Source: Botryococcus braunii (taxonomy: Eukaryota > Chlorophyta > Trebouxiophyceae). From it: DNA of 42,043 nucleotides. A model generated the notes under the pieces. The model saw only the letters and a list, made by a program, of their open reading frames with translations, had not been told where the DNA came from and ran no database searches. The DNA lies in assembly GCA_002005505.1 (NCBI GenBank), contig KV908641.1:126714-168756 (forward strand). The letters are read 5' to 3'. This document shows positions 1,005 to 41,165 of this stretch, piece after piece. Position 1 is the first letter of the stretch. Each line of letters begins with the position of its first letter. The translations under genes and the position numbers were made by a program.

Positions 1005-17811
<16,807 letters not shown>

Positions 17812-18205: not shown

Positions 18206-18334
18206 TTGCTACGAAGCCTTTGTCTGCCAATCCAGAGTCCCCAATCGGGTTTACAATAGGTTGACTGAGCCTTTTGAGGTGGCCTTAGGGCTTGGAGACC
18301 CTACTCTAGTGGGAAATTTTCCACCAGACCATCC
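18206..18334. repeat. Split direct repeat, B2 copy (element end)
   Basis: 129 bp, identical base for base to 18,593-18,721. Left of it the two sequences diverge after AATTGCT/ATTTGCT, and right of it one continues GGGTGGG and the other ACCTCCC, which fixes the ends. This is the outer terminus of the DIRS element. Confidence 0.88.
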
Positions 18335-18592
18335 GGGTGGGCGGGCGGGACCAATAAAGGTGCGATGAGCCGTCCGTCACCAGGGTATACACAGTCAAGC
18401 TAGTGCAACACCGCTCCTGTCTCTCTAGATTGAAACCCTGCCCTTTACCAAGCTTGGTAGCTTTAATGAGTTAGTTCAGCCGTTGTTTCCCTTGAAATAT
18501 CCCATATCATTCATCCGTGATCTGGAGTCACGTGATGGTTCCCTTAGTCACCCCTCCTGAGGGGTTTACTAGCCCTCTCGTAGCAATGGTAT
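18335..18592. repeat. Split direct repeat, A2 copy
   Basis: 258 bp between the two B copies. From 18,352 (CAATAAAGGTGCGATGAGCC) to about 18,515 it matches 41,014 to about 41,165 at the far end of the element, with many one-base gaps in the far copy. Beyond that, similarity to the far end fades. It begins with a G-rich run GGGTGGGCGGGCGGGA. Confidence 0.8.
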
Positions 18593-18721
18593 TTGCTACG
18601 AAGCCTTTGTCTGCCAATCCAGAGTCCCCAATCGGGTTTACAATAGGTTGACTGAGCCTTTTGAGGTGGCCTTAGGGCTTGGAGACCCTACTCTAGTGGG
18701 AAATTTTCCACCAGACCATCC
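18593..18721. repeat. Split direct repeat, B1 copy
   Basis: Identical to B2. The recombinase reading frame is already open here (from 18,648), so part of the repeat may be its leader or N-terminus. Confidence 0.88.
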
Positions 18722-21700
18722 ACCTCCCCAGTATCCCAACTGGCAGCCTGCTGACACGCTGGCTGTCCTGCAGCATGCAGGATCCCCTTTGGCAGCCATC
18801 CTAGAGTGCCCCAGACTCTTGGGTATGGCTGACACCATGCTATTGGGCCGCCAAATTCCTTGTCAGCCTGGACCTCCCCTTAGCGCAGCAACCGCAGACC
18901 AATATTTCCAATGGCTCACTAGGGCCAATACCATCCAGCTGCTAGCCATAAAAGGAGCCACCATGCAGAAGAAGCTCAGCGCCTTTGATAGGTTCTGCGA
19001 ATTCATGCGTGACACCGGCCGCCATGCCCTTCAGGCGACCCCCCAAGACATCAAAGTCCACATGACCCTGTGGGCTACTTCCAGTGGCAGATACAAGCAT
19101 CAAGGCTTGGACCTTGTCGCCCCCATCAGCATGCGATGCTTACTGTCCTTCTTAGCCACCGAGTTTGACCGCTATGCCACCACACATGGCAACTGGGATC
19201 CCCTCCACGGCCGAGGTAACCCCTCCATTGAGCTACCTTTGAAACCCGTGCATTGCCGCCTGCCTTGCTCCTCCGTATCGTATTTTGAATAAACGTGTAA
19301 CCAGTTTGTAAACGTGTAAGTGATGTACAGACTTGCACCTGCCGTAGGAAATCCCGTGCGCTCCCTTGATGTGGCTGAGTGGGCCACTGGCTACACTCGC
19401 TGGCTGGCCCATCTGGGCTACAATCCCCAGTCTGCACATCCCTGGAGTTTGGACGACCTGCGCCACGTGCTTGAACGTTTGGATGCTCGCATCGCCAGCA
19501 CCACTGGTGTCCCTTTGCTCCGCCTTCACCGGGATGCCTTCACCATGACCATCTTGTGGGAGACTTGCTCCAGGGGGGCTACTGCGGTCTCCTGGTGTCT
19601 GGATGACTTGTGGTTGGCCTCGGGTGTGCCCCCCCCCCCCTTTCTCCCTCGCCAGTTACCCCCCCCACCCCTTTAACCCTGGTGGCCTGCCCCGCCATCC
19701 CTTGGCCCCCCTGCCAGGCCTTCCTGCGCTGTCCCCGTCAGTTTCCCATACTGCCCCCATATCCCCTCGCTCTTGTGATGGAATGTAGGGATTTCCCGGC
19801 ATTTCTGGACATTTCCCTTACCCCCTAGCCTAGGCGCACATGTGGCGCACATGTCGTACGAGCAACGCGAGTACGCACGTGCCTAGCGTCTAGCCTTGGC
19901 TTCCTAGCCGTCGAATTCCATTGGATAGTTATGGACGTTACTCTCATAGTAGGATTCTAGGATATTTTCTAGATACTATTGTAGAGGTTTGGTGGACTAG
20001 TGCGCTACCATTGGAGGAACGTGAACACACGATCACGAACCACGGGAAGGAACGGATAGAGACGTAAGCCACGGGAAGACACGCACTCAGGTAATTTGGA
20101 AGCTTAGTAGACCACAAGTAGGGAGTGGAAGCTCCGTGAGGTGGGGGTTACTTGTAATTGGAAAGAGCGTCCAACTTGTCGGCCATCCGGCCTTGTCTCT
20201 CTCTCTCTCACAACTTGGAAATTCTCTCTAACTTGTGCATTCTACGACATCTGGTATCGGCGAGATGCCGAATTGTTCTCTGCAAGTCTTTCGCGTGGTG
20301 GAAGGAGGAAAGTCGTAGGAGGGAGATCGTTCGATGGAAGGTCCTAACTCTCATATGTGGGCCGTAGATGTCACCGCCCTCTTCTGGGAAGTTTAAAAAC
20401 CTTTCTTCGGAAGAAAGAGAATTTTTGGAAGCGTTGGAAAGCTCAGGGGAGCTGGTAGAGGACTTGATGGAGGGGGCATCTCGCGATCCGTCGCCCGCTC
20501 CGTCCACACCAAAGACAAAGAAGATCAAGTTGACCAATAAAATAAAGGAGCAGTTATTTTTGGAATTTAAGGAAAAGCTTCTTGCCGAAAGGCAAGTTGG
20601 AGGGGATGGGGTGGAGGAGACTCCTCGCCCTAGTGGACAAGTAAGAGCAACTCCTCCTTCTTTGTTTTCGGGAAAGAGGGGATCTTTTTGCTATTTTGCA
20701 AGGAAGTTGGAAGGCTATGCAAAACTAACCAATGTGCCTGCAGGAAAGTGGGTGGCCTTGGGAGTGCAATTGATGGAAGAAAGACCCACAAAAGTTTGGG
20801 ACACACATGTAAGGAAACTAGAAAAGGAAGGGATACATGAGCATACATTGGAATGGAAGGATTTTAAAACTTTTATGGTTAAAAGATATGATTCCACAGA
20901 CACAGTGGCCATTGCCAGGGCAAAATTAGACAAAGTCTTTCAAGGAAATGAGACTGTCGAGAGATATATTGAAAGATTTATGTCTCTCTTAGCAGATGTA
21001 GAGGTTGACTATCAAATAGCCATGCAAGACCAGTTACATCTTTTTACCAAGGGTCTTAATACTCCTCTCAAACTTGCATGCACTGTGAACCCTGCAACAG
21101 GCAGTCCTTTCACTGATCTGGAAGACATTTGCACTTATGTTGTTAAATATGAGGCAAGTCTCAAAAGCACATATGTGGATGCACAGGGACCCAAGAGGAA
21201 GAGGGTCTACACCCAGACACCTCAAGTGGCAGCAGGAGTGGTGGAACAACAGCCCCCTGCACCACCTTCCTTGGGTTTGGTGGGAGCACCCCCTTTTGGG
21301 TCCGGGAGAAAAATTGATTCTAGAACCTCTATTCCAAAGGATAGGGAATGCTATTTTTGTCATAAACTAGGCCACGAGTCATGGCAGTGTGTTGCTAAAA
21401 AGCAATATCTAGCTGCCAAAGCTCAAGCTAGTGGGCACACCCCATCAAATTTTCAGCCTGGATTCTATCCGAGGCAAGGAAACAATCAACCAGTGGCAGC
21501 ACCACTGCAAGGTGTTTCACCTCCCTCACACATTGGGCCTAAGGGATTTAACAAGGGAAAACATTGGAAAGGGAAAGGGAAGGGCAAGGGCCCTAAACAA
21601 GATTAGTCATGAATGAAATTTGTTTTTCATATTTAACTTTTCTTGTTCAGAAGTCCTTGGGAAGTTGGAATACACCTCTGATTGTTCCTGGCAAACACAA

Positions 21701-24700
21701 AGCTGAGACTTGTATTGAATCTTTTCTTGCTGAACGAAAAGAAAACTCACAAGTCAGTGCATGCTTTGTGATAGGCCAGAAGGTGTGGAAAAGTAGGAGT
21801 TTCTTTTTGCGGTTACGCTCTCGCGCAAACCTGAAAATTCTTGCTAGGGGCTCAAAAGGGGAATGCTTTTCTTTTCAAGGACAGCAATGTACATTTCCTT
21901 TTTCCTTTGTTTTAGCTTATGCAGCACCCAAAGCATCTTGTCAGTTGGGTTCAACGTCAAGTGCTGCACCTCTTAACCTCACATTTCCTGTCATGGCAAG
22001 GGGACAACAATGTAAAGCTTTAATGGACACCGGGGCCACACACTCTTTTGTCCGGGAAAAAGTTTTGCAAGGTTTGAGGTATAACAAGAGGACTTCACCC
22101 GTCACACTTGCTGATGGGACAGTAACACACACAAATGGGAAAGTGGATTTGAGTGTCCGGTTTGCTCCATCTATCATTACGAGACACTCCTTTCTTGTGT
22201 GTGACTCAATAATGGAAGGAATTGACATAATTTTGGGACAGGATTGGCTAGCACCACGACATGCTAATGTTAATGTGAGAGCTAGCAAGGCTCATATTAG
22301 ACACAATAACAAATGGGTCTTGTTAAACAAACATGGAAAAGGCTTGGGAAAGAAGTTGGGATGGGGAATCAAATTAGGAAACACCAGGAAAGGGAAACGG
22401 GATCATTGGAAAACCTGCTTGTTCAATGTCATGGCCAAGGATGAACATGTTGGTTGGGATGAACAGGAAGAGATGCCACCTTTGGTGGACATGGACGACC
22501 CCTCGACGGAGTCATCCGGGACTTCCTTACACAACTCTGCGCCGGGGGATACCTCGGGCACGGCCCCGGATATGGAGAGTTGCCTAGAAGTGGAGAAGGA
22601 AGTGGAAGAGGAAGAGGAAAGGGAAGAGGAAAAGGAAGAGGAAGAGGGAGAATCCGAGGTCACCACGGGTAAGCCTTCGGACCCTCTAGAGGAAATTTGT
22701 GCTAAAAAGCCTGAGCGGCTAGCACACTTGCTCCGGGAGTACAAGGACATTTTTCCAAATGGGCTACCAGGACTACCCCCACACCGACAAGTCTATCACA
22801 CTATTAATGTGCAGGAAGGAATAACTCCTCCAAACCGTCCTGCTTACCGCTTGTCCGTGGAAGAAACTGAGGAATGTGAGCGAACTGTGGATGAACTACT
22901 TTCTAAGGGACACATACGCCCCTCATGTTCACCATATGCTTCACCGGTCTTGTTTGTGAGGAAGAAGGAGGGCACATACCGAATGGTTATAGACTACAGG
23001 GCATTAAATAAAATCACCATTCATGATAGGTACCCTCTCCCTCGCATAGACGACTTGCTTGATAAACTTAAAGGTGCTAAGATTTTCTCAAGTCTGGACC
23101 TCCTCAGTGGTTATCATCAAGTAAGGCTAAAGGAGGAAGACATTCCTAAAACAGCGTTTCGTACACCCTTTGGGCTGTATGAGTTCTTAGTGCTTCCTTT
23201 TGGACTCACCAACGCCCCCGCTACCTTTCAACGCCTAATGAATGAAATCTTTCATGATTTCATAAGGGAAGGGTTTGTGGTAGTGTACCTTGACGATGTT
23301 CTAATTTTCAGTCGGGATGAAGAGGAGCATTATGCTCATCTTCGGAAGGTGTTCCAACGCCTTCGGGAAAAGGAATTGTTTGCAAAACTTGCCAAATGTG
23401 AATTCTTATGCTCAGAACTCAAATACCTCGGGCATATCATTGGCAAGGATGGACTGAAAGTGGACCCCCAAAAGGTGGAGGTAGTCAAGGATTGGCCCAC
23501 ACCCCAAAACGTCACCGACGTGCGTAGATTTTTGGGGCTTGCAAATTATTTTCGAAAATTTATTCAGGGGTTCAGCTCACTTGCTGCACCTTTGACTAAA
23601 CTGTCCAGTAGCAAAAGTTCTTGGACTTGGGGAAAGGAGCAAGATGAGGCCCTTGCGGCTCTCAAGGATGCATTAATACAGGCACCCATACTATCACTGC
23701 CAGACCTTCGTAAACCCTTCCAGGTAATTTGTGATGCGAGTGATTTTGGGGTTGGCGCTGTACTATTGCAGGAAGGTCGAGTCATTGCTTATTACAGTAA
23801 GAAGCTCAATAGTGCAGAAAGGAACTATTCTGCAACTGAGAGGGAGTTACTTGCTGTAGTGTATGCCTTGATTGAATGGAGATGTTATGTCCTAGGGAAA
23901 CAAGTCACTGCCACCACAGACCATAAGTGTAACACTTTTCTTCAGCAACAGGTTGGTTTAAGCCCTCGGAGGGCACGGTGGGCTGAGAAGTTGCAGGAGT
24001 TCAACATTCTTTGGGTTTGGGAGCCTGGAAAGACTAACGTTGCGGATGCGTTGTCCAGGAACCCAGTCCTCCAGGGACAGCTCCAGGGACAACAGCAGCG
24101 CAACGTCTCCACGGAGCCCAACCCCGGGAAGGGGACCAATGCAACCTCGATGGATGGGGACGGGAGGGCCCGCTCGGGCTCCATCACCCTCGGGTCTGAC
24201 GGGTGTGACACCTTCCTGGAATTGTTGAAGGGTGCTTACGCACATGATTCGTGGTTGGGAACAAGGGCAAATAGGAGAAAAGTTCACTTTACGGACGGGG
24301 TTTGGGAATTTGGAAGGGAGGGAAGAAAATATGTGCCTGCATTTTATGAAGTCCGGGATAAGGAAGGTCCAGTTGCTAGGAATCTGCGGCAGGACATATT
24401 GAAAGCTTTGCATGAACCTCCTTCTGTTGGTCATCCAGGCTTTGCGAAGATGTATGATCTAGTGAAGCGGGACTGGTGGTGGCCGGGAATGGCGGAGGAT
24501 GTGCGGGAGTATGTGAAGTATTGTGATTCATGCCAGCGGGTGAAGGCCTCAAACCAGTTACCCGCAGGACTCTTACACCCTTTACAAATCCCCACAAGGA
24601 AATGGCAAAGCATCTCAATGGATTTCATCACGGGACTGCCTAAAAGCAAACACGGGCATAACGCAATATGGGTAGTGGTTGACAGGTTGAGCAAATGTGC

Positions 24701-27700
24701 CCACTTTGCCCCTACCACTACCAATGCAGATGCTTATGAAGTTGCTGTTCTGATGAGGGATAAAGTATGGAAGTATCACGGTTTCCCTGAAGAAATTGTT
24801 TCGGACCGAGATCCTCGGTTTGTGAATAATTTCATGAACACACTTCTAAGTCTGACGGGGTGCAAGCCGGCTCGAACTACGGCATATCATCCTCAGTCAG
24901 ATGGTCAAACGGAACGGGTGAATAGGATCTTGGAAGATTTTTTTGAAACACTATGTCAAGGATAACCCAAGGGAGTGGGAGGATTACCTTTCAGTGGCGG
25001 AATTTGCCTACAACAACTCTTGGCAAACTTCCCTAAACTCCACACCCTTCAGGTTAACATATGGGCAAGATCCAAATATACCGTTTGCGGTGGGACACAT
25101 GGAGGGCACTAAGGTGGATAGGGCTGATCTCTTCATGAGAAAAATGCAAGACAAAATCACCCTTGCAAGGAAGTGTTTGCGTGCAGCTCAAGACCGTCAG
25201 ACGGCCTATGCCAACCGGCATAGGAGGGAGGCCATCTACCAGGAAGGGGACTATGTCCTCCTTTCAACCCGTGCGGCCCCCACGCTAACTTCAAACAGAT
25301 TCAGCAAGCTGCAACCCAGGCACGTGGGACCCTTCAGGGTCATGGCGGTCACGCCCGACAACGTTAACTTCGTCACACTGGATCTTCCGGACCGGCTGGA
25401 CATCCACCCCCGCATAAATGTCTGCTATTTGAAGCCATACTGGACACGTGAGGAGGCGCAGTCGCGTGGATACTGCCCCCCAAAAGTCATCACCAAAGCG
25501 GATGGCACCACTCACCTGGAGTGGGTAGTGGATGCACTAGTCGATCACCGGCTGTTGCACGACAAGGATGGGTTCTCCTACCATTTTGAGGATGGCACAC
25601 CCTTTCTCGAGTACCTTGTAAAGTGGGCAGGCCATGGGGCCACAGAGGACTCATGGGAATCTCAGGAGGCATTCGAGACCCATCCCGGGCTGGTTAATAC
25701 CTATCATAGACTCCAGGGGCTCGCCCCGCCCATTTGGGACCAGGTGGCGCTGCGCGACACCTTCCCTTGAACGGGCCCCTCCGGACGGTTGTCCCCCTCA
25801 TTCCACTTGTGGAGTTCCCACCTGGTGTCTGGGAATACATGGGACGGGACCTATGGTAGGGACTGTATATCTTGTGTACTTTGGGACAAGGGACGGGGTA
25901 GGTTGCCTACCTCGGTATGTGTGGCATGAGGCCTCATACCGCTTCGATGCATTGAACTCGGGGTTCTGCATTCAGGGATAGGAATTGAAGTACACATGGC
26001 GCGCAACCGCAGTCTGCTTAACTAGCACTTGGGACGTGGGCTTGAAGTACAGAAGTGACTTGGAACCCTTGGCTATGGGCTACTTGGAACCCTTGGCTAT
26101 GGGCTACTTGGAACCCTTGGATATGGACTACTTGGCATCTTGGGATGGATTTCTTTCTATGTACTATATGTGTACCTTATGTGTACAGTATGTGTACAGT
26201 ATGGACAATGTATCATAAAGAAACTGTGTTGTATGGATAGCCACTTTAGGGAAGCATTGTGGACTGAGCTACACCTGTGTCATATTTATCTTGTTCGGAT
26301 TGTTTATCGGTTGTGTCACAAGCATTGTATTGCTTTAATAAATAATAAATAGGGATGTGTCAATAAAGGCCGACTTGGATAGTTCGAAAGGAATAAGGCG
26401 AACGTTCGTCGTAGTTCGCCGTAATTTATCGTAATTATCGTACCGTGTCGTATCGTATCGTACAGTATTGTACTTAGGAATAAAGCCCACCAAATAAATA
26501 AATTAAAAACAAAAAAAAAAAAAAAAAATGGACGCTTTAGTCAATTGCTTGGGATGATAGGGGAATAACTTGGAGGCGGGGACCCTAATGTAACCCATTC
26601 GGCAAGGGTCTAACGGCGCTGGTGGATGGGCCGTTCGGTGACGACCATTCCCTTATAATTGTGGTCTACTGTATGTGTGTATGTGGCTGCATGAGGACAT
26701 GCAGGAATTAAGGGGGGGATGATGTGATGGAATGTAGGGATTTCCCGGCATTTCTGGACATTTCCCTTACCCCCTAGCCTAGGCGCACATGTGGCGCACA
26801 TGTCGTACGAGCAACGCGAGTACGCACGTGCCTAGCGTCTAGCCTTGGCTTCCTAGCCGTCGAATTCCATTGGATAGTTATGGACGTTACTCTCATAGTA
26901 GGATTCTAGGATATTTTCTAGATACTATTGTAGAGGTTTGGTGGACTAGTGCGCTACCATTGGAGGAACGTGAACACACGATCACGAACCACGGGAAGGA
27001 ACGGATAGAGACGTAAGCCACGGGAAGACACGCACTCAGGTAATTTGGAAGCTTAGTAGACCACAAGTAGGGAGTGGAAGCTCCGTGAGGTGGGGGTTAC
27101 TTGTAATTGGAAAGAGCGTCCAACTTGTCGGCCATCCGGCCTTGTCTCTCTCTCTCTCACAACTTGGAAATTCTCTCTAACTTGTGCATTCTACGACAGC
27201 TCTCTTCATGACTGTGTGCTTGCGGTTGCAGGGGTCCCTGCTGCCCCCTATCTGTTCCCCACTCTGCACGTTCCGCTTGGCGCGACCATCTTCTTCAAGG
27301 CTATAGAGCTCAAGCACAACTTGCACCCAGAGGTGATGATCGTCACCCGCAGAGACGGCCCCCTGTGCCCCATCCAACGCCTCCACACCTTGCTCGCCCA
27401 GTCTGCTGCCCTGGGTCACCCCGTCACCCAGTTCCTGTGTCGCCCCTTGTCTGCCAACAAGGACCAATTCCTCGAGCGCAGCCTCAGCGTGGCTGCCTTT
27501 GAAGACGACATCGACACCCATTTTACAGCTGCCAACATCCCTTACCATGCTACCCTCCACGGGAGCCGGCGTGGTGCACTGCAGCACCATGACCAGCAAG
27601 GGCAGTCCCTGGAAGCTCTCGGTCTTCTTGCCCAGATCAAGACCCCCAACGTGACCAAGCGCTACATCGATCCTAACCGCCACCTGCCCTCCAAGTTGCC

Positions 27701-27740
27701 CAAAGGGAAGCGCCCTAACAAAAGAGCTCGCCTGGCCTGA
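18648..27740 (+). CDS. DIRS tyrosine recombinase, three exons
   Basis: Cuts and rejoins DNA through a tyrosine-DNA link to integrate the element. Exons: 18,648 (first in-frame ATG 18,825) to 19,215; 19,348-19,623; 27,232-27,740. Both GT-AG junctions keep phase and join HGRG-NPVRSLD and WLASG-VPAAPYLF. From the ATG this gives 391 residues, normal for the family. Exon 1 has the helical core-binding domain (FDRFCEFMRDTG) and the GRGNP motif; exon 2 has the box A arginine in ETCSRGATAV (19,572-19,574); exon 3 has HGSRRG (His at 27,558, Arg at 27,567) and the nucleophile in NVTKRYIDP (Tyr 27,663-27,665). Intron 1 is 132 bp. Intron 2 would be 178 bp but now holds a 7.4-kb gypsy element. The coding sequence looks intact. 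Confidence 0.85.
19216..19347 (+). other. Intron 1 of the DIRS recombinase
   Basis: GTAACC to GCCGTAG, 132 bp, phase 1, with in-frame stops. Splicing restores the GNP motif found after the core-binding domain of DIRS recombinases. The intron start also happens to read GNP if retained. Confidence 0.75.
19774..20249 (+). repeat. 5' LTR, gypsy copy 1
   Basis: 476 bp, TG...CA ends. It carries two near-copies of GGCGCACATGT in tandem near 19,834-19,856 and a short (CT)n stretch at 20,196-20,208. It matches the 3' LTR at every base I compared. Confidence 0.95.
20252..20263 (+). other. Primer binding site, gypsy copy 1
   Basis: TGGTATCGGCGA starts 2 bp after the LTR. The first seven bases fit the 3' end of a tRNA ending GATACCA, as the initiator Met tRNA does; the following bases differ from the usual plant TGGTATCAGAGC, so the exact primer is unsure. 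Confidence 0.6.
20368..21606 (+). CDS. gag: Gypsy copy 1 Gag (412 aa)
   Basis: Structural protein that packages the element's RNA in a cytoplasmic particle. A retrotransposon Gag capsid region spans roughly residues 125-240, with VERYIERFMSLL typical of plant gypsy Gag. A CCHC zinc knuckle, CYFCHKLGHESWQC, has its ligands at C328, C331, H336 and C341. The C-terminus is basic (GKHWKGKGKGKGPK) and should bind RNA. The start is the first ATG after the 118-bp leader. The pol frame begins 3 bp after the stop in a different frame. The gene is open end to end, unlike in copy 2. Confidence 0.93.
   Translation: MSPPSSGKFKNLSSEEREFLEALESSGELVEDLMEGASRDPSPAPSTPKTKKIKLTNKIKEQLFLEFKEKLLAERQVGGDGVEETPRPSGQVRATPPSLFSGKRGSFCYFARKLEGYAKLTNVPAGKWVALGVQLMEERPTKVWDTHVRKLEKEGIHEHTLEWKDFKTFMVKRYDSTDTVAIARAKLDKVFQGNETVERYIERFMSLLADVEVDYQIAMQDQLHLFTKGLNTPLKLACTVNPATGSPFTDLEDICTYVVKYEASLKSTYVDAQGPKRKRVYTQTPQVAAGVVEQQPPAPPSLGLVGAPPFGSGRKIDSRTSIPKDRECYFCHKLGHESWQCVAKKQYLAAKAQASGHTPSNFQPGFYPRQGNNQPVAAPLQGVSPPSHIGPKGFNKGKHWKGKGKGKGPKQD
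21609..24965 (+). CDS. pol: Gypsy copy 1 Pol, protease to integrase core (frameshifted end)
   Basis: Polyprotein that copies the RNA into DNA and integrates it. Aspartic protease DTG at residues 140-142 (LMDTGATHSF); an acidic Glu-rich linker around 325-360; RT with YLDD at 560-563 and FGLTNAPATFQ upstream; RNase H with DAS at 709 and a TERELLAVVYA helix; integrase zinc site with H935, H942, C972 and C975; and a DDE triad at D1005, D1066 and E1102 with 35 residues between the last two. The frame ends at 1,118 aa because the T run at about 24,938-24,944 has seven Ts where copy 2 has six. The integrase tail continues in the next frame. Confidence 0.94.
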   Translation: MNEICFSYLTFLVQKSLGSWNTPLIVPGKHKAETCIESFLAERKENSQVSACFVIGQKVWKSRSFFLRLRSRANLKILARGSKGECFSFQGQQCTFPFSFVLAYAAPKASCQLGSTSSAAPLNLTFPVMARGQQCKALMDTGATHSFVREKVLQGLRYNKRTSPVTLADGTVTHTNGKVDLSVRFAPSIITRHSFLVCDSIMEGIDIILGQDWLAPRHANVNVRASKAHIRHNNKWVLLNKHGKGLGKKLGWGIKLGNTRKGKRDHWKTCLFNVMAKDEHVGWDEQEEMPPLVDMDDPSTESSGTSLHNSAPGDTSGTAPDMESCLEVEKEVEEEEEREEEKEEEEGESEVTTGKPSDPLEEICAKKPERLAHLLREYKDIFPNGLPGLPPHRQVYHTINVQEGITPPNRPAYRLSVEETEECERTVDELLSKGHIRPSCSPYASPVLFVRKKEGTYRMVIDYRALNKITIHDRYPLPRIDDLLDKLKGAKIFSSLDLLSGYHQVRLKEEDIPKTAFRTPFGLYEFLVLPFGLTNAPATFQRLMNEIFHDFIREGFVVVYLDDVLIFSRDEEEHYAHLRKVFQRLREKELFAKLAKCEFLCSELKYLGHIIGKDGLKVDPQKVEVVKDWPTPQNVTDVRRFLGLANYFRKFIQGFSSLAAPLTKLSSSKSSWTWGKEQDEALAALKDALIQAPILSLPDLRKPFQVICDASDFGVGAVLLQEGRVIAYYSKKLNSAERNYSATERELLAVVYALIEWRCYVLGKQVTATTDHKCNTFLQQQVGLSPRRARWAEKLQEFNILWVWEPGKTNVADALSRNPVLQGQLQGQQQRNVSTEPNPGKGTNATSMDGDGRARSGSITLGSDGCDTFLELLKGAYAHDSWLGTRANRRKVHFTDGVWEFGREGRKYVPAFYEVRDKEGPVARNLRQDILKALHEPPSVGHPGFAKMYDLVKRDWWWPGMAEDVREYVKYCDSCQRVKASNQLPAGLLHPLQIPTRKWQSISMDFITGLPKSKHGHNAIWVVVDRLSKCAHFAPTTTNADAYEVAVLMRDKVWKYHGFPEEIVSDRDPRFVNNFMNTLLSLTGCKPARTTAYHPQSDGQTERVNRILEDFFETLCQG
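24943..25770 (+). CDS. pol: Gypsy copy 1 Pol C-terminal part: integrase tail and chromodomain
   Basis: Continuation of pol after the one-base insertion; the first codons overlap the end of the preceding frame. It begins with the integrase C-terminal region (EWEDYLSVAEFAYNNSW, then a GPFRVMAV SH3-like segment). It ends with a chromodomain at about residues 200-255, carrying FLEYLVKWAGHG and EDSWES. Chromodomains mark the chromovirus branch and guide integration to certain histone marks. In copy 2 this part is fused in frame with the integrase core. Confidence 0.92.
   Translation: MKHYVKDNPREWEDYLSVAEFAYNNSWQTSLNSTPFRLTYGQDPNIPFAVGHMEGTKVDRADLFMRKMQDKITLARKCLRAAQDRQTAYANRHRREAIYQEGDYVLLSTRAAPTLTSNRFSKLQPRHVGPFRVMAVTPDNVNFVTLDLPDRLDIHPRINVCYLKPYWTREEAQSRGYCPPKVITKADGTTHLEWVVDALVDHRLLHDKDGFSYHFEDGTPFLEYLVKWAGHGATEDSWESQEAFETHPGLVNTYHRLQGLAPPIWDQVALRDTFP
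26058..26129 (+). repeat. 24-bp tandem repeat, three copies, in gypsy copy 1
   Basis: Units at 26,058-26,081, 26,082-26,105 and 26,106-26,129 share ACTTGGAACCCTTGG. Copy 2 has only two units at the equivalent place (33,646-33,693). Confidence 0.92.
26707..26722 (+). other. Polypurine tract, gypsy copy 1
   Basis: Purine-rich AAGGGGGGG stretch ending at the 3' LTR, the usual primer site for plus-strand DNA synthesis. Confidence 0.75.
26723..27198 (+). repeat. 3' LTR, gypsy copy 1
   Basis: 476 bp, the partner of 19,774-20,249, followed by the target duplication GCTCT. Confidence 0.95.
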
Positions 27741-27746
27741 CCATGC

Positions 27747-30215: not shown

Positions 30216-30218
30216 GAT

Positions 30219-31449: not shown

Positions 31450-31740
31450 CTTTTCCCTTGCCTGTAGTTTCTTTGCCTCTGAGTCGCTGGACTCGATGGA
31501 GATGTTTGCGTTGTTCTTGTTCTGCAACTGTTTGTCCAGCCGCAGCTCATGTGCTGCTACTTCCAGCGCCCTCTTGTAGAAATCCCTGGCACCTCTGCCG
31601 GTTTGGTTGTAGTCCTTTCTGCAGTCTTCCCTGAGTTCTGTAGCTCGCCTGGCAAGATCCTGCCAATCATCCTCGTGCTTGCCTCTGGTGGCTGCTGCCA
31701 CCCTCTGTGCCATGGCCCTGACCTTTTCCCTGGCGCTGCC
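31450..31740 (-). CDS. DIRS gag-like middle exon
   Basis: 291 bp, 97 codons, phase 0. The acceptor is CTGGGAGCAG and the donor is AAG followed by GTAAGCG. It encodes a charged, mostly helical protein segment: GKHEDDWQDLARRATELRED, RDFYKRALEVAAHELRLDKQ, then a Ser/Asp stretch and KKLQAREK. No known domain. Helical, basic and acidic patches fit a Gag-type assembly protein. Confidence 0.6.
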
Positions 31741-31833
31741 CTGCTCCCAGGCGACCCTCCCTCAGCTTAAGTGCATCCCATATCAAATGTCAGCCTCTTG
31801 CTGGTATGATAACCCATGCACCAAGACTGTACC

Positions 31834-32409: not shown

Positions 32410-32554
32410 CCGCCTTAAAAGGCCTCCCCATATTCCCCTGAATTGCCCTGGCCTTTTTGCCTACATTCCAGTTAATCCCACAGGTAGCCTTGCTCTTGCC
32501 AGCCTCCAGGTAACCTTGTCCCCTTCCCCCTCGAGCTTATGACACCCTGCCTTT

Positions 32555-33030
32555 TGTCGTAGAATGCACAAGTTAGAGAGAATTTCCAAGTTGTGAGAGA
32601 GAGAGAGACAAGGCCGGATGGCCGACAAGTTGGACGCTCTTTCCAATTACAAGTAACCCCCACCTCACGGAGCTTCCACTCCCTACTTGTGGTCTACTAA
32701 GCTTCCAAATTACCTGAGTGCGTGTCTTCCCGTGGCTTACGTCTCTATCCGTTCCTTCCCGTGGTTCGTGATCGTGTGTTCACGTTCCTCCAATGGTAGC
32801 GCACTAGTCCACCAAACCTCTACAATAGTATCTAGAAAATATCCTAGAATCCTACTATGAGAGTAACGTCCATAACTATCCAATGGAATTCGACGGCTAG
32901 GAAGCCAAGGCTAGACGCTAGGCACGTGCGTACTCGCGTTGCTCGTACGACATGTGCGCCACATGTGCGCCTAGGCTAGGGGGTAAGGGAAATGTCTAGA
33001 AATGCCGGGAAATCCCTACATTCCATCACA
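32555..33030 (-). repeat. 3' LTR, gypsy copy 2
   Basis: 476 bp, minus orientation. It has TCTAGAAATGCC near 32,994 where the other LTRs have TCCAGAAATGCC. Confidence 0.95.
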
Positions 33031-33046
33031 TCATCCCCCCCTTAAT
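33031..33046 (-). other. Polypurine tract, gypsy copy 2
   Basis: On the plus strand a run of seven Cs next to the LTR; on the element strand a G-run preceded by GGAATTAA, as in copy 1. Confidence 0.7.
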
Positions 33047-33645
33047 TCCTGCATGTCCTCATGCAGCCACATACACACATACAGTAGACCACAATTATAA
33101 GGGAATGGTCGTCACCGAACGGCCCATCCACCAGCGCCGTTAGACCCTTGCCGAATGGGTTACATTAGGGTCCCCGCCTCCAAGTTATTCCCCTATCATC
33201 CCAAGCAATTGACTAAAGCGTCCATTTTTTTTTTTTTTTTTTTGGTTTTTTTTTTAATTTATTTATTAGGTGTGCTTTATTTTAGTCCTAAGTACAATAC
33301 TGTACGATACGATACGACACGGTACTATAATTACGATAAATTACGATAAATTACGGCGAACTACGACGAACGTTCGCCTTATTCCTTTCGAACTATCCAA
33401 GTCCGCCTTTATTGACACATCCCTATTTATTATTTATTAAAGCAATACAATGCTTGTGACACAACCGATAAACAATCCGAACAAGATAAATATGACACAG
33501 GTGTAGCTCAGTCCACAATGCTTCCCTAAAGTGGCTATCCATACAACACAGTTTCTTTATGATACATTGTCCATACTGTACACATACTGTACACATAAGG
33601 TACACATATAGTACATAGAAAGAAATCCATCCCAAGATGCCAAGT

Positions 33646-33693
33646 AGTCCATATCCAAGGGTTCCAAGTAGCCCATAGCCAAGGGTTCCAAGT
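33646..33693 (-). repeat. 24-bp tandem repeat, two copies, in gypsy copy 2
   Basis: Two units sharing CCAAGGGTTCCAAGT on the plus strand; copy 1 has three. Confidence 0.9.
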
Positions 33694-33980
33694 CACTTCT
33701 GTACTTCAAGCCCACGTCCCAAGTGCTAGTTAAGCAGACTGCGGTTGCGCGCCATGTGTACTTCAATTCCTATCCCTGAATGCAGAACCCCGAGTTCAAT
33801 GCATCGAAGCGGTATGAGGCCTCATGCCACACATACCGAGGTAGGCAACCTACCCCGTCCCTTGTCCCAAAGTACACAAGATATACAGTCCCTACCATAG
33901 GTCCCGTCCCATGTATTCCCAGACACCAGGTGGGAACTCCACAAGTGGAATGAGGGGGACAACCGTCCGGAGGGGCCCGT

Positions 33981-36869
33981 TCAAGGGAAGGTGTCGCGCA
34001 GCGCCACCTGGTCCCAAATGGGCGGGGCGAGCCCCTGGAGTCTATGATAGGTATTAACCAGCCCGGGATGGGTCTCGAATGCCTCCTGAGATTCCCATGA
34101 GTCCTCTGTGGCCCCATGGCCTGCCCACTTTACAAGGTACTCGAGAAAGGGTGTGCCATCCTCAAAATGGTAGGAGAACCCATCCTTGTCGTGCAACAGC
34201 CGGTGATCGACTAGTGCATCCACTACCCACTCCAGGTGAGTGGTGCCATCCGCTTTGGTGATGACTTTTGGGGGGCAGTATCCACGCGACTGCGCCTCCT
34301 CACGTGTCCAGTATGGCTTCAAATAGCAGACATTTATGCGGGGGTGGATGTCCAGCCGGTCCGGAAGATCCAGTGTGACGAAGTTAACGTTGTCGGGCGT
34401 GACCGCCATGACCCTGAAGGGTCCCACGTGCCTGGGTTGCAGCTTGCTGAATCTGTTTGAAGTTAGCGTGGGGGCCGCACGGGTTGAAAGGAGGACATAG
34501 TCCCCTTCCTGGTAGATGGCCTCCCTCCTATGCCGGTTGGCATAGGCCGTCTGACGGTCTTGAGCTGCACGCAAACACTTCCTTGCAAGGGTGATTTTGT
34601 CTTGCATTTTTCTCATGAAGAGATCAGCCCTATCCACCTTAGTGCCCTCCATGTGTCCCACCGCAAACGGTATATTTGGATCTTGCCCATATGTTAACCT
34701 GAAGGGTGTGGAGTTTAGGGAAGTTTGCCAAGAGTTGTTGTAGGCAAATTCCGCCACTGAAAGGTAATCCTCCCACTCCCTTGGGTTATCCTTGACATAG
34801 TGTTTCAAAAAATCTTCCAAGATCCTATTCACCCGTTCCGTTTGACCATCTGACTGAGGATGATATGCCGTAGTTCGAGCCGGCTTGCACCCCGTCAGAC
34901 TTAGAAGTGTGTTCATGAAATTATTCACAAACCGAGGATCTCGGTCCGAAACAATTTCTTCAGGGAAACCGTGATACTTCCATACTTTATCCCTCATCAG
35001 AACAGCAACTTCATAAGCATCTGCATTGGTAGTGGTAGGGGCAAAGTGGGCACATTTGCTCAACCTGTCAACCACTACCCATATTGCGTTATGCCCGTGT
35101 TTGCTTTTAGGCAGTCCCGTGATGAAATCCATTGAGATGCTTTGCCATTTCCTTGTGGGGATTTGTAAAGGGTGTAAGAGTCCTGCGGGTAACTGGTTTG
35201 AGGCCTTCACCCGCTGGCATGAATCACAATACTTCACATACTCCCGCACATCCTCCGCCATTCCCGGCCACCACCAGTCCCGCTTCACTAGATCATACAT
35301 CTTCGCAAAGCCTGGATGACCAACAGAAGGAGGTTCATGCAAAGCTTTCAATATGTCCTGCCGCAGATTCCTAGCAACTGGACCTTCCTTATCCCGGACT
35401 TCATAAAATGCAGGCACATATTTTCTTCCCTCCCTTCCAAATTCCCAAACCCCGTCCGTAAAGTGAACTTTTCTCCTATTTGCCCTTGTTCCCAACCACG
35501 AATCATGTGCGTAAGCACCCTTCAACAATTCCAAGAAGGTGTCACACCCGTCAGACCCGAGGGTGATGGAGCCCGAGCGGGCCCTCCCGTCCCCATCCAT
35601 CGAGGTTGCATTGGTCCCCTTCCCGGGGTTGGGCTCCGTGGAGACGTTGCGCTGCTGTTGTCCCTGGAGCTGTCCCTGGAGGACTGGGTTCCTGGACAAC
35701 GCATCCGCAACGTTAGTCTTTCCAGGCTCCCAAACCCAAAGAATGTTGAACTCCTGCAACTTCTCAGCCCACCGTGCCCTCCGAGGGCTTAAACCAACCT
35801 GTTGCTGAAGAAAAGTGTTACACTTATGGTCTGTGGTGACAGTGACTTGTTTCCCTAGGACATAACATCTCCATTCCGTCAAGGCATACACTACAGCAAG
35901 TAACTCCCTCTCAGTTGCAGAATAGTTCCTTTCTGCACTATTGAGCTTCTTACTGTAATAAGCAATGACTCGACCTTCCTGCAATAGTACAGCGCCAACC
36001 CCAAAATCACTCGCATCACAAATTACCTGGAAGGGTTTACGAAGGTCTGGCAGTGATAGTATGGGTGCCTGTATTAATGCATCCTTGAGAGCCGCAAGGG
36101 CCTCATCTTGCTCCTTTCCCCAAGTCCAAGAACTTTTGCTACTGGACAGTTTAGTCAAAGGTGCAGCAAGTGAGCTGAACCCCTGAATAAATTTTCGAAA
36201 ATAATTTGCAAGCCCCAAAAATCTACGCACGTCGGTGACGTTTTGGGGTGTGGGCCAATCCTTGACTACCTCCACCTTTTGGGGGTCCACTTTCAGTCCA
36301 TCCTTGCCAATGATATGCCCGAGGTATTTGAGTTCTGAGCATAAGAATTCACATTTGGCAAGTTTTGCAAACAATTCCTTTTCCCGAAGGCGTTGGAACA
36401 CCTTCCGAAGATGAGCATAATGCTCCTCTTCATCCCGACTGAAAATTAGAACATCGTCAAGGTACACTACCACAAACCCTTCCCTTATGAAATCATGAAA
36501 GATTTCATTCATTAGGCGTTGAAAGGTAGCGGGGGCGTTGGTGAGTCCAAAAGGAAGCACTAAGAACTCATACAGCCCAAAGGGTGTACGAAACGCTGTT
36601 TTAGGAATGTCTTCCTCCTTTAGCCTTACTTGATGATAACCACTGAGGAGGTCCAGACTTGAGAAAATCTTAGCACCTTTAAGTTTATCAAGCAAGTCGT
36701 CTATGCGAGGGAGAGGGTACCTATCATGAATGGTGATTTTATTTAATGCCCTGTAGTCTATAACCATTCGGTATGTGCCCTCCTTCTTCCTCACAAACAA
36801 GACCGGTGAAGCATATGGTGAACATGAGGGGCGTATGTGTCCCTTAGAAAGTAGTTCATCCACGCTCAC
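33981..36869 (-). CDS. pol: Gypsy copy 2 Pol, RT to chromodomain (962 aa open frame)
   Basis: Continuous frame covering RT (YLDDVLIF), RNase H (DASDFGVG), integrase zinc site, DDE core and chromodomain (YLVKWAGHG). The T run in the integrase has six Ts, so the chromodomain stays fused to the integrase, which shows what the family's arrangement should be. A few substitutions distinguish it from copy 1 (TEWRC against IEWRC; TVTTDH against TATTDH). Its 5' end is not a real start: a 5-bp deletion near 36,867 (AACTG missing after GAGCG) and a one-base loss about 85 bp upstream cut it off from the protease part. Confidence 0.92.
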   Translation of the reverse strand: MSVDELLSKGHIRPSCSPYASPVLFVRKKEGTYRMVIDYRALNKITIHDRYPLPRIDDLLDKLKGAKIFSSLDLLSGYHQVRLKEEDIPKTAFRTPFGLYEFLVLPFGLTNAPATFQRLMNEIFHDFIREGFVVVYLDDVLIFSRDEEEHYAHLRKVFQRLREKELFAKLAKCEFLCSELKYLGHIIGKDGLKVDPQKVEVVKDWPTPQNVTDVRRFLGLANYFRKFIQGFSSLAAPLTKLSSSKSSWTWGKEQDEALAALKDALIQAPILSLPDLRKPFQVICDASDFGVGAVLLQEGRVIAYYSKKLNSAERNYSATERELLAVVYALTEWRCYVLGKQVTVTTDHKCNTFLQQQVGLSPRRARWAEKLQEFNILWVWEPGKTNVADALSRNPVLQGQLQGQQQRNVSTEPNPGKGTNATSMDGDGRARSGSITLGSDGCDTFLELLKGAYAHDSWLGTRANRRKVHFTDGVWEFGREGRKYVPAFYEVRDKEGPVARNLRQDILKALHEPPSVGHPGFAKMYDLVKRDWWWPGMAEDVREYVKYCDSCQRVKASNQLPAGLLHPLQIPTRKWQSISMDFITGLPKSKHGHNAIWVVVDRLSKCAHFAPTTTNADAYEVAVLMRDKVWKYHGFPEEIVSDRDPRFVNNFMNTLLSLTGCKPARTTAYHPQSDGQTERVNRILEDFLKHYVKDNPREWEDYLSVAEFAYNNSWQTSLNSTPFRLTYGQDPNIPFAVGHMEGTKVDRADLFMRKMQDKITLARKCLRAAQDRQTAYANRHRREAIYQEGDYVLLSTRAAPTLTSNRFSKLQPRHVGPFRVMAVTPDNVNFVTLDLPDRLDIHPRINVCYLKPYWTREEAQSRGYCPPKVITKADGTTHLEWVVDALVDHRLLHDKDGFSYHFEDGTPFLEYLVKWAGHGATEDSWESQEAFETHPGLVNTYHRLQGLAPPIWDQVALRDTFP

Positions 36870-36920
36870 ATTCCTCAGTTTCTTCCACGGACAAGCGGTA
36901 AGCAGGACGGTTTGGAGGAG

Positions 36921-38134
36921 TTATTCCTTCCTGCACATTAATAGTGTGATAGACTTGTCGGTGTGGGGTAGTCCTGGTAGCCCATTTGGAAAAATGTCCT
37001 TGTACTCCCGGAGCAAGTGTGCTAGCCGCTCAGGCTTTTTTACACAAATTTCCTCTAGAGGGTCCGAAGGCTTACCCGTGGTGACCTCGGATTCTCCCTC
37101 TTCCTCTTCCTTTTCCTCTTCCCTTTCCTCTTCCTCTTCCACTTCCTTCTCCACTTCTAGGCAACTCTCCATATCCGGGGCCGTGCCCGAGGTATCCCCC
37201 GGCGCAGAGTTGTGTAAGGAAGTCCCGGATGACTCCGTCGAGGGGTCGTCCATATCCACCAAAGGTGGCATCTCTTCCTGTTCATCCCAACCAACATGTT
37301 CATCCTTGGCCATGACATTGAACAAGCAGGTTTTCCAATGATCCCGTTTCCCTTTCCTGGTGTTTCCTAATTTGATTCCCCATCCCAACTTCTTTCCCAA
37401 GCCTTTTCCATGTTTGTTTAACAAGACCCATTTGTTATTGTGTCTAATATGAGCCTTGCCAGCTCTCACATTAACATTAGCATGTCGTGGTGCTAGCCAA
37501 TCCTGTCCCAAAATTATGTCAATTCCTTCCATTATTGAGTCACACACAAGAAAGGAGTGTCTCGTAATGATAGATGGAGCAAACCGGACACTCAAATCCA
37601 CTTTCCCATTTGTGTGTGTTACTGTCCCATCAGCAAGTGTGACGGGTGAAGTCCTCTTGTTATACCTCAAACCTTGCAAAACTTTTTCCCGGACAAAAGA
37701 GTGTGTGGCCCCGGTGTCCATTAAAGCTTTACATTGTTGTCCCCTTGCCATGACAGGAAATGTGAGGTTAAGAGGTGCAGCACTTGACGTTGAACCCAAC
37801 TGACAAGATGCTTTGGGTGCTGCATAAGCTAAAACAAAGGAAAAAGGAAATGTACATTGCTGTCCTTGAAAAGAAAAGCATTCCCCTTTTGAGCCCCTAG
37901 AAGAATTTTCAGGTTTGCGCGAGAGCGTAACCGCAAAAAGAAACTCCTACTTTTCCACACCTTCTGGCCTATCACAAAGCATGCACTGACTTGTGAGTTT
38001 TCTTTTCGTTCAGCAAGAAAAGATTCAATACAAGTCTCAGCTTTGTGTTTGCCAGGAACAATCAGAGGTGTATTCCAACTTCCCAAGGACTTCTGAACAA
38101 GAAAAGTTAAATATGAAAAACAAATTTCATTCAT
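36921..38134 (-). pseudogene. pol: Gypsy copy 2 pol 5' part, frameshifted
   Basis: The ATG at 38,134 matches the copy 1 pol start. A one-base loss near 37,903 (TTCTAGGGG against TTGCTAGGGG) breaks the frame; the protease part (LMDTGATHSF) is open again from 37,799 to 36,921. A CCCCC to CCCC loss near 36,965 then leads to an early stop. The two pol breaks near 36.9 kb total six bases, so the frame is restored beyond them. Confidence 0.88.
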
Positions 38135-38136
38135 GA

Positions 38137-39372
38137 CTAATCTTGTTTAGGGCCCTTGCCCTTCCCTTTCCCTTTCCAATGTTTTCCCTTGTTAAATCCC
38201 TTAGGCCCAATGTGTGAGGGAGGTGAAACACCTTGCAGTGGTGCTGCCACTGGTTGATTGTTTCCTTGCCTCGGATAGAATCCAGGCTGAAAATTTGATG
38301 GGGTGTGCCCACTAGCTTGAGCTTTGGCAGCTAGATATTGCTTTTTAGCAACACACTGCCATGACTCGTGGCCTAGTTTATGACAAAAATAGCATTCCCT
38401 ATCCTTTGGAATAGAGGTTCTAGAATCAATTTTTCTCCCGGACCCAAAAGGGGGTGCTCCCACCAAACCCAAGGAAGGTGGTGCAGGGGGCTGTTTTCCA
38501 CCACTCCTGCTGCCACTTGAGGTGTCTGGGTGTAGACCCTCTTCCTCTTGGGTCCCTGTGCATCCACATATGTGCTTTTGAGACTTGCCTCATATTTAAC
38601 AACATAAGTGCAAATGTCTTCCAGATCAGTGAAAGGACTGCCTGTTGCAGGGTTCACAGTGCATGCAAGTTTGAGAGGAGTATTAAGACCCTTGGTAAAA
38701 AGATGTAACTGGTCTTGCATGGCTATTTGATAGTCAACCTCTACATCTGCTAAGAGAGACATAAATCTTTCAATATATCTCTCGACAGTCTCATTTCCTT
38801 GAAAGACTTTGTCTAATTTTGCCCTGGCAATGGCCACTGTGTCTGTGGAATCATATCTTTTAACCATAAAAGTTTTAAAATCCTTCCATTCCAATGTATG
38901 CTCATGTATCCCTTCCTTTTCTAGTTTCCTTACATGTGTGTCCCAAACTTTTGTGGGTCTTTCTTCCATCAATTGCACTCCCAAGGCCACCCACTTTCCT
39001 GCAGGCACATTGGTTAGTTTTGCATAGCCTTCCAACTTCCTTGCAAAATAGCAAAAAGATCCCCTCTTTCCCGAAAACAAAGAAGGAGAGTTGCTCTTAC
39101 TTGTCCACTAGGGCGAGGAGTCTCCTCCACCCCATCCCCTCCAACTTGCCTTTCGGCAAGAAGCTTTTCCTTAAATTCCAAAAATAACTGCTCCTTTATT
39201 TTATTGGTCAACTTGATCTTCTTTGTCTTTGGTGTGGACGGAGCGGGCGACGGATCGCGAGATGCCCCTCCATCAAGTCCTCTACCAGCTCCCCTGAGCT
39301 TTCCAACGCTTCCAAAAATTCTCTTTCTTCCGAAGAAAGGTTTTTAAACTTCCCAGAAGAGGGCGGTGACAT
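38137..39372 (-). pseudogene. gag: Gypsy copy 2 gag, broken by one-base deletions
   Basis: Aligns throughout with the intact gag of copy 1, from the ATG at 39,372 to the stop at 38,137. At least three one-base losses are visible: in a G run near 39,266, in ACTCCTCC near 39,092, and in GGAACAACAG near 38,491. The CCHC knuckle region (38,360-38,400) is still readable. Confidence 0.9.
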
Positions 39373-39476
39373 CTACGGCCCACATATGAGAGTTAGGACC
39401 TTCCATCGAACGATCTCCCTCCTACGACTTTCCTCCTTCCACCACGCGAAAGACTTGCAGAGAACAATTCGGCATC

Positions 39477-39488
39477 TCGCCGATACCA
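39477..39488 (-). other. Primer binding site, gypsy copy 2
   Basis: TGGTATCGGCGA on the minus strand, 2 bp inside the 5' LTR, same as copy 1. Confidence 0.6.
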
Positions 39489-39490
39489 GA

Positions 39491-39964
39491 TGTCGTAGAA
39501 TGCACAAGTTAGGAGAATTTCCAAGTTGTGAGAGAGAGAGAGACAAGGCCGGATGGCCGACAAGTTGGACGCTCTTTCCAATTACAAGTAACCCCACCTC
39601 ACGGAGCTTCCACTCCCTACTTGTGGTCTACTAAGCTTCCAAATTACCTGAGTGCGTGTCTTCCCGTGGCTTACGTCTCTATCCGTTCCTTCCCGTGGTT
39701 CGTGATCGTGTGTTCACGTTCCTCCAATGGTAGCGCACTAGTCCACCAAACCTCTACAATAGTATCTAGAAAATATCCTAGAATCCTACTATGAGAGTAA
39801 CGTCCATAACTATCCAATGGAATTCGACGGCTAGGAAGCCAAGGCTAGACGCTAGGCACGTGCGTACTCGCGTTGCTCGTACGACATGTGCGCCACATGT
39901 GCGCCTAGGCTAGGGGGTAAGGGAAATGTCCAGAAATGCCGGGAAATCCCTACATTCCATCACA
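39491..39964 (-). repeat. 5' LTR, gypsy copy 2
   Basis: 474 bp; lacks one base in AGAGAGAATT and one C in the CCCCCACC run relative to the other three LTRs. Confidence 0.95.
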
Positions 39965-40309
39965 CCTTCCTCTCTTCAAAGGGATTTGGCCTCCAACCGG
40001 CACCCCAGCTTCTTTGACCAATGGCATACGTTAGACACCTCAGTCCCCTGTCCTGCCAGCCCTGTATCCCTTGGCATGACTTCATTTCTCAGTTCCCGCA
40101 CCCCAATGTGCGACGTAGCCGTGACTCTGCGCTTTTGTTGCCTTTGAGCCTGCTGTTGCCCTTAGTTAGTCCGCAGGGTTAGTACATATTTCCTGATTTT
40201 ATGTCTACTGCACTGCGAGACTTGCCAGGTGCTGCCTACTGCAGCTTGCAACCCAATCGTTCTTGCATGAACCCTCCTATTTTGCGATAAAGTTAAACTA
40301 ACTTCTTAC

Positions 40310-40605
40310 CTTGTGACTCTCCGCCGCCTGTTCAGCGCGAGTCAGCAACCTGCTACGATCTTCGTCCGAACTGGCAAGCTCAGACGAAGAGAAGCTGCCC
40401 GAGGAGCTCCTGCGTCTCTTGCTGTGTTTCTTTGTTTTCCTTTGTAATTTATTTACCTGTTTCAACGTTCTTTTGAAGGCGGCGACGCGACTGCCCTGTT
40501 GGTTACTTGCTCCCCGTGGCTGGCCCACTCTTTAGGTACTGGTCTATTCTGTTCGAACACCCTGTCTAGCCTGTCGAAAACTTCTGATGGGCTAACAAAC
40601 CCTTT
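40310..40605 (-). CDS. DIRS gag-like 5' segment
   Basis: Two overlapping minus-strand frames read like one protein. The first, from about 40,605, gives SPSEVFDRLDRVFEQNRPVP and KEWASHGEQV; the second, to 40,310, gives FKRTLKQVNKLQRKTKKHSK, RRRSSSGSFSSSELASSDED and RAEQAAESHK. The change of frame near 40,480-40,500 needs one base. The Lys/Arg and Ser/Asp-rich composition suits a nucleic-acid-binding Gag. No ATG start was found in these frames, so a further 5' exon or a lost start is likely. Confidence 0.5.
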
Positions 40606-41013
40606 AGAGGATTAAACTTGGTGCAGCTGACGGATTACTTAGAATGAGCTCGAATAGGGCGAGTTTGGACTGAATAACGATGTGTGCACTCTAAACAGAC
40701 CTGTTTGGTGTCCCCTGGGGACCCGGCAGCCCTCTTAGCTATCCCTCAACAAGTGCTCTTCATTCAACTCTCGAGACCGCCATATATATGAGGCGACCTC
40801 GTAGAGTTTGTGAGGATTGCTTCCTTTCTATTAGAGCGAAACCACATGACTTTCCGGACTGAGCTTTAGCTCGAAAGTCGTCCGGTGATCAAGTTAGCTG
40901 CCAAGCTTCGAAAAGGGGTAACACATCTCTTACCGCCCCAGCACCTGACGCCATGCTGAGGAATAACAAATACAAACTGCTCCTGCCCAAGCCAGTGGCG
41001 TCGGCCACCAACA

Positions 41014-41165
41014 CAATAAAGGTGCGATGAGCCGTCCGTCACCAGGGTATACACAGTCAAGCTAGTGCAACACCGCTCCTGTCCCTAGATTGAACCCTGC
41101 CTTTACAAGCTTGGTAGCTTAATGAGTTGTTCAGCCGTGTTTCCCTTGAAATACTATCCCCCATC
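41014..41165. repeat. Split direct repeat, A1 copy (element end)
   Basis: Matches A2 from CAATAAAGGTGCGATGAGCC through CCCTTGAAATA. Relative to A2 it lacks single bases at seven or more places, always in runs or simple doublets. The similarity fades after about 41,165, so this is the best estimate of the element's right end. Confidence 0.78.

Follow-up and report, generated by a model that had tools for sequence, protein, structure and literature searches.

Retrotransposons in which the tyrosine recombinase (YR) gene runs against the reverse transcriptase (RT) gene have been described from Volvox and Daphnia, and in the parts of the survey that treat them (PMC4157794) the two kinds differ in where their internal repeats lie. 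Kangaroo of Volvox carteri, a member of the PAT group, is defined there by an inverted YR together with internal repeats between the MT domain and the YR, and its Gag is given as having no zinc finger, while in an unnamed PAT element of Daphnia pulex the YR is again inverted and the internal repeats directly precede the 3′ terminal repeat (Szitenberg et al., 2014, their Fig. 1G). The same authors treat the inversion that kangaroo and the D. pulex element have in common as homoplasy, so that inversion of the YR is by itself no proof of kinship. Here we describe an element of about 8.2 kb from Botryococcus braunii, a trebouxiophyte chlorophyte by its taxonomy, that occupies positions 18206-41165 of a 42,043-nucleotide stretch (contig KV908641.1, positions 126,714 to 168,756 of the forward strand, assembly GCA_002005505.1; hereafter the window) together with two copies, inverted to each other, of one gypsy element. 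It is a single element, and its layout in RT sense is A1-gag-RT/RNase H-[YR antisense]-B1-A2-B2, where A and B are the repeats of its 5′ and 3′ ends; this is the layout of the D. pulex element and not that of kangaroo, from which the published descriptions set it apart. We think it likely that this is a PAT-group YR retrotransposon that moves by the RNA, circle and recombination pathway proposed below. On balance, and with more reserve, we also favor the reading that it is a recently active retrotransposon that has kept two spliceosomal introns in gag and, on the opposite strand, two more in the YR gene.

The element and its copies

The RT open reading frame (ORF; 822 aa, 27747-30215, minus strand) and the YR gene (plus strand, stop at 27740) converge with 6 bp between their stops, an arrangement that a preliminary description had noted and that the ORF coordinates confirm; in both families of copies introduced below the gap is 5-6 bp. 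The frame contains RT with RNase H (Pfam RVT_1, E=7e-12), followed by about 180 residues at the place where a PAT-group MT domain is expected, for which Pfam returned no match; the RT fold search covered mainly residues 89-640. The 391-aa recombinase of the preliminary description does exist, though only as three exons (18825-19215, 19348-19623 and 27232-27740) that are not contiguous, the second intron being interrupted by a gypsy element. The suspected streptophyte host was mistaken, the YR matching a JGI Botrbrau1 model at 390 of 391 residues.

A search of the B. braunii genome with the RT (176.1 Mb in 989 contigs, the window lying at the end of contig C353) gave at least 58 matches, the window copy among them, a count of scored matches only and so a lower bound. 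Full-length frames without stops (start at or before residue 3, end at or after residue 814) make up 33 of the 58, nine of them at 98-100% identity to the window copy's RT (family 1) and 24 at 78-79% (family 2). Other copies with the convergent layout had been called for as a check. We extracted 20 loci of other copies, and YR sequence converges with RT in 18 (the exceptions are L021 and L026); the layout is therefore not due to chance, and the other copies do not bear out the concern that the two genes might belong to different elements. Over 8.2 kb, five copies of family 1 diverge by 0.01-0.24% and five of family 2 by 0.2-3.0%, with a single difference in 8,219 bp between L013 and L028. The paired repeats within each element are alike as well: in all ten copies that allow the test, no mismatch separates A1 from A2, with six gap columns in one copy, and B1 is identical to B2. 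Such repeat pairs and near-identical copies suggest that the family has moved recently. The family is also present among B. braunii gene models: YR proteins of extracted family-1 copies match one JGI model at 389-390 of 391 residues, and a family-2 RT matches another at 813 of 815. RT-based scans of viral and genome contig collections found no relative outside the B. braunii genome, a literature search combining Botryococcus, DIRS and retrotransposon found no paper, and the B. braunii genome paper of 2024 (PMC11286282) does not contain "DIRS" in its main text.

A third family is represented by the one copy read, L069 (C139:185300-194000), in which the YR in three exons and the same ends are kept, the N-terminal half of RT is gone and other sequence stands in place of gag.

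The features of the window copy are as follows.

18206-18334, minus: B2, 3′ terminal repeat in RT sense, 129 bp; identical (129/129) to 18593-18721, with a flank that varies among copies
18350-18592, minus: A2, internal copy of the 5′ terminal repeat; 18350-18594 is ~97-100% identical to the 5′ ends of other family-1 copies
18578-18601, no strand: circle-type junction and putative YR core, from its 9-bp inverted arms and 6-bp spacer
18593-18721, minus: B1, internal copy of the 3′ terminal repeat, from its identity with B2 and the pairing of B starts
18825-19215, plus: YR exon 1, 391 nt; length constant in 11/11 modeled copies, 129/130 residues to JGI model P0047
19216-19347, plus: YR intron 1, GTAACC...CCGTAG, 132 nt, from the family alignment and copy models
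19290-19329, plus: conserved block inside YR intron 1 with three TGTAA words, recognizable in families 1, 2 and 3
19348-19623, plus: YR exon 2, 276 nt, with the putative first catalytic Arg (in CSRGATAVSW, which we take to be this motif); 91/91 residues to the JGI model
19624-27231, plus: YR intron 2, GTGTGC...TTGCAG, enlarged by gypsy; 173-180 nt in six other family-1 copies
19769-27203, plus: Ty3/gypsy chromodomain long terminal repeat (LTR) element (19774-27198, 7,425 bp) with its 5-bp target duplication GCTCT; LTRs identical at 476/476
27232-27740, plus: YR exon 3, with putative HxxR (LHGSRRG) and Tyr (KRYI), presumed assignments; 168/168 residues to the JGI model
27747-30215, minus: RT/RNase H ORF, 822 aa, C-terminal region uncharacterized; Pfam RVT_1
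30219-30617, minus: predicted gag exon 3 with a CCCH-like motif, from gag models of other copies
31450-31740, minus: predicted gag exon 2, 291 nt; equal length in 12/13 copies, 288 nt in one
32550-39969, minus: second, inverted gypsy copy (32555-39964), in predicted gag intron A; LTRs identical at 473/474 aligned bases with four gap columns, flanks CCTTT and CCTTC
40310-40954, minus: predicted gag exon 1, with many single-base deletions by comparison with another copy; contig end
41012-41153, minus: A1, 5′ terminal repeat, incomplete; ~240 bp in other copies

The termini are thus split direct repeats in the order A1-B1-A2-B2, as had been proposed: B2 equals B1, and 18352-18424 (in A2) matches 41014-41086 (in A1) at 99%. 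The earlier statement that both genes are intact holds for the RT frame and for the YR exons, which have no stops, but not for the element, since this copy is damaged and lies at the contig end. Its 5′ repeat stops at about 41153, where the window and the contig end together, and 40500-41165 carries many single-base deletions against copy L012, which probably reflect poor consensus rather than decay.

Predicted introns in the recombinase and gag genes

We modeled the YR gene in 11 of the 20 loci, in both families, and all 11 models encode 391 aa in exons of 391 nt, 276 nt and a third, with GT-AG introns at equal places. We set the exon boundaries by motifs chosen from the family alignment, and JGI models give nearly the same proteins (P0047 at 390/391 to family 1, P0048 at best at 383/391 to family 2). 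The exons are constrained, with a ratio of nonsynonymous to synonymous substitution (dN/dS) between families of 0.08, and the introns vary in length (127-132 nt for intron 1, 120-180 nt for intron 2). Between families intron 2 is identical at 62/120 positions, slightly above shuffled sequences (51/120, 52/120 and 53/114), and intron 1 at 81/123 with the conserved block retained. This TGTAA block of ~40 bp is recognizable in three families (three TGTAA words, two in family 3) in an otherwise poorly conserved intron, and two metagenome proteins, P0052 and P0053, seem to read through a stretch that matches it. TGTAA is a green-algal poly(A) signal, and the cluster might act as a switch for polyadenylation within the intron and so limit how much recombinase is made. 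TGTAA words also stand on the RT-sense strand in B1 and B2, in the one copy of each family inspected.

Gag was modeled in 13 loci, with a predicted exon 1 of 663 nt in family 1 and 644-645 nt in family 2, an exon 2 of 288-291 nt and a third exon, separated by spacers of 1.14-1.16 kb and 0.83-0.97 kb that we predict to be introns. In 13/13 copies the joins are in phase 0, with GTAAG- or GTGAG-type donors and CAG acceptors at GT-AG sites, and the predicted spliced joins read AAG|GGCAGCGCC and AAG|GCGGGGAAG. The resulting frame of 449-450 aa is open in 11 of the 13 (the exceptions are L016, with a stop at 398 aa, and L018, with a frameshift), and one copy of each family has, in exon 3, a C-x8-C-x8-C-x3-H spacing that is CCCH-like as motif spacing only. 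Between families gag dN/dS is ~0.11 over 444 aligned codons, with dS saturated, and that of RT is 0.08. The spacers behave otherwise: intron A is identical across families at 438/981 positions, no better than shuffles (420/963, 440/1076 and 462/1087), and intron B at 374/815 aligned bases, a figure without a shuffle of its own.

Have any copies lost these introns? All four intron sequences are retained in the modeled copies, and when the genome was searched for the four spliced junctions (two of YR, two of gag), with as many as two mismatches allowed, no processed copy came to light. One pattern had a single match (C186, two mismatches), which reads as an unspliced acceptor with one base changed; another had three matches with two mismatches, on contigs without a known copy, and its reversed-pattern control gave five; the remaining two had none. 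Introns on both strands are the unusual part of this element, and their splicing is a prediction.

Both gypsy copies of the window sit inside predicted introns, each oriented as the gene around it, and LTRs of the same gypsy also lie near YR exon 3 in copy L009. Outside the element, 13126-16195 contains long frames (up to 606 aa) that overlap on the two strands, and adjoins a (GT)n tract at 16.6 kb. Pfam gave no match for three of these frames, two of which belong to a set of seven further window ORFs that returned nothing at E up to 0.01.

Junction, insertion sites and the proposed pathway

Among the 100 B-start places listed (of 177), 92 form 46 pairs that are 387 or 389 bp apart, and B1A2 with B2 is kept beside the 3′ end in 10 of the 11 copies with mapped ends. 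The internal junction of family 1 reads TCGTAGCAA-TGGTAT-TTGCTACGA, with 9-bp inverted arms around a 6-bp spacer, and that of family 2 CCGTGGCAA-TGGAAT-TTCCCACGA, with arms that match at 7/9; the inner arms co-vary, from GTAG..CTAC in family 1 to GTGG..CCAC in family 2. For comparison, YR sites are given in part of PMC3212892 as inverted repeats of 11-13 bp around 6-8 bp. L010 (7.8 kb), the exception among the 11, and L011 both end at B1 and lack A2-B2, the form expected from B1 × B2 recombination or from a single-junction circle.

We chose 30 insertion sites among the matches listed and scored 24, six being dropped where they adjoin another copy or an N run (L017, also beside a copy, was kept). 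No target duplication was found at the 24 sites, and their flanks differ where compared. The preference is A..TT: A at -2 (18/24), T at +1 (15/24) and T at +2 (19/24) exceed the 99.9% level expected by chance. Two further preferences, for G at +3 and for C at +4 (14/24 each), and an unexplained bias at -15 clear only the 99% level, and A or T at -1 (19/24) clears neither. When the flanks of L013 are joined in silico, they match an unoccupied paralogous site at 193/195, without gaps across the join, so this insertion was precise, without duplication or loss. At five of the 30 sites the element's 5′ end abuts the 5′ end sequence of another copy, head to head, and at L051/L053 (C171:11486-11646) the 3′ ends of two copies come within a few bases of each other.

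These observations suggest the following pathway. The template would be unspliced RT-sense RNA running from A1 to B2, and a spliced form of the same RNA would make Gag, as argued for BARE in part of PMC3735527. The inverted YR cannot be translated from RT-sense RNA, as the preliminary description rightly held, and would come from a separate, antisense spliced mRNA; because its introns are antisense to the template, they survive retrotransposition. With 5-6 bp between the stops, the two transcripts could avoid overlap only by ending almost directly at their stops. The split repeats would then let RT produce a circle in which B adjoins A, and YR would recombine this B|A junction, with its 9-bp arms and 6-bp spacer, with chromosomal sites like AW|TTGC.

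Several points count against this pathway and the identities it assumes. The case is drawn from DNA sequence alone, and the evidence of an empty site comes from one insertion, L013. We regard the recombinase as putative, from its R/HxxR/Y signature and the insertion mode without target duplication; the putative R, HxxR and Y, which we presume to be correctly assigned, are present across the aligned family, but Pfam and PHROGs made no YR call (best PF00589, E=0.16, in one relative, P0054), an hhalign profile comparison with the YR-bearing DIRS-like protein P0035 found nothing, and the predicted structure has low confidence (pLDDT 44.6). Solved structures, searched by profile, likewise yielded no recombinase but mostly fluorescent proteins at E 0.075 or worse. 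The preliminary description had suggested that an antisense promoter for YR might lie in the B1/A2 repeat, which stays conjectural: a simple TATA-like scan of that stretch upstream of YR gave nothing in two copies. The gag introns are predicted by our own models, those of YR also by JGI models, and processed copies more than two bases off at a junction would escape the junction search.

Other explanations compete with the one preferred here. The gag introns may go unspliced, leaving three separate ORFs or decayed stretches and introns in the antisense YR only, as their predicted status and the chance-level alignment of the first spacer would allow; yet in family 2 the conserved part of gag piece 2 is not preceded by a start of its own, nor is that of piece 3 in family 1, and phase-0 joins with consensus donors in all 13 modeled copies and a dN/dS of ~0.11 (dS saturated) over the 444 aligned codons make this rather improbable. 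Less probable still is that the copies multiply chiefly as DNA, through cut-and-paste by YR or reinsertion of circles, in which case intron retention would be uninformative on splicing of the template: it would account for introns in every modeled copy and for a third family that keeps its YR exons with half its RT lost, but comparison of the families shows purifying selection on both RT and gag, and many RT frames are full-length. That the window copy is nested with two gypsy elements at a contig end might suggest that the assembly is wrong here or that an RT element and a YR element lie together by chance, an idea to which the same junction in 18 of 20 loci, with different flanks at the compared sites, leaves practically no room.

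Comparison with described elements

The strongest competitor is that this is a true kangaroo element of the Volvox lineage whose internal repeats have moved, and the preliminary description had indeed called it kangaroo-type. Kangaroo, as given in part of PMC4157794, shares with it the green algal host, the inverted YR and the split direct repeats, but the place of the internal repeats differs: B1A2 (18350-18721) lies beyond the YR start, beside B2, and not between MT and YR. The CCCH-like motif of the predicted Gag may be a further difference from kangaroo, whose Gag is described as lacking a zinc finger, and given the homoplasy proposed for D. pulex the inversion alone is no proof of kinship. 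None of the protein matches to RT or YR is named kangaroo, TOC3 or PAT, most being nameless. We consider membership of the kangaroo lineage possible but doubtful.

We return to a probable PAT-group element that has both the inverted YR and the internal-repeat place of the D. pulex element, whose host is an animal. It adds a trebouxiophyte family in which at least 33 RT frames are full-length, some copies are nearly identical, the junction has been mapped, and both an empty site and a preferred target are in hand, and so makes the proposed circle-and-recombine pathway testable in a culturable alga. If the reading is true, introns on both strands call for a dedicated genomic RNA that stays unspliced and, on the opposite strand, a spliced mRNA with a promoter of its own, the 3′ ends of the two overlapping tail to tail, and retention of these introns would sharply constrain how template RNA is chosen and how spliced RNA is excluded from replication.

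Two other kinds of element bear on this conclusion, namely TOC3 of Chlamydomonas, and Ogre and BARE1, which are LTR elements not known to carry a YR. TOC3 and other PAT-like green-algal elements place the PAT group in algae, as here (parts of PMC4157794 and PMC8226300), and the direction of the TOC3 YR is given as different from kangaroo's, and is thus unlike that of the B. braunii element too. The word "intron" does not occur in PMC4157794. The plant elements Ogre and BARE1 have sense-strand introns, as predicted for gag here, and for BARE1, whose RNA forms a spliced and an unspliced pool, it is argued that the unspliced RNA alone is replicated; the portions of PMC3735527 that treat these elements describe no antisense intron-bearing gene. 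We conclude that the B. braunii element is a new, inverted-YR variant of the PAT kind in a trebouxiophyte alga, and that its most surprising feature is the presence of predicted introns on both strands.

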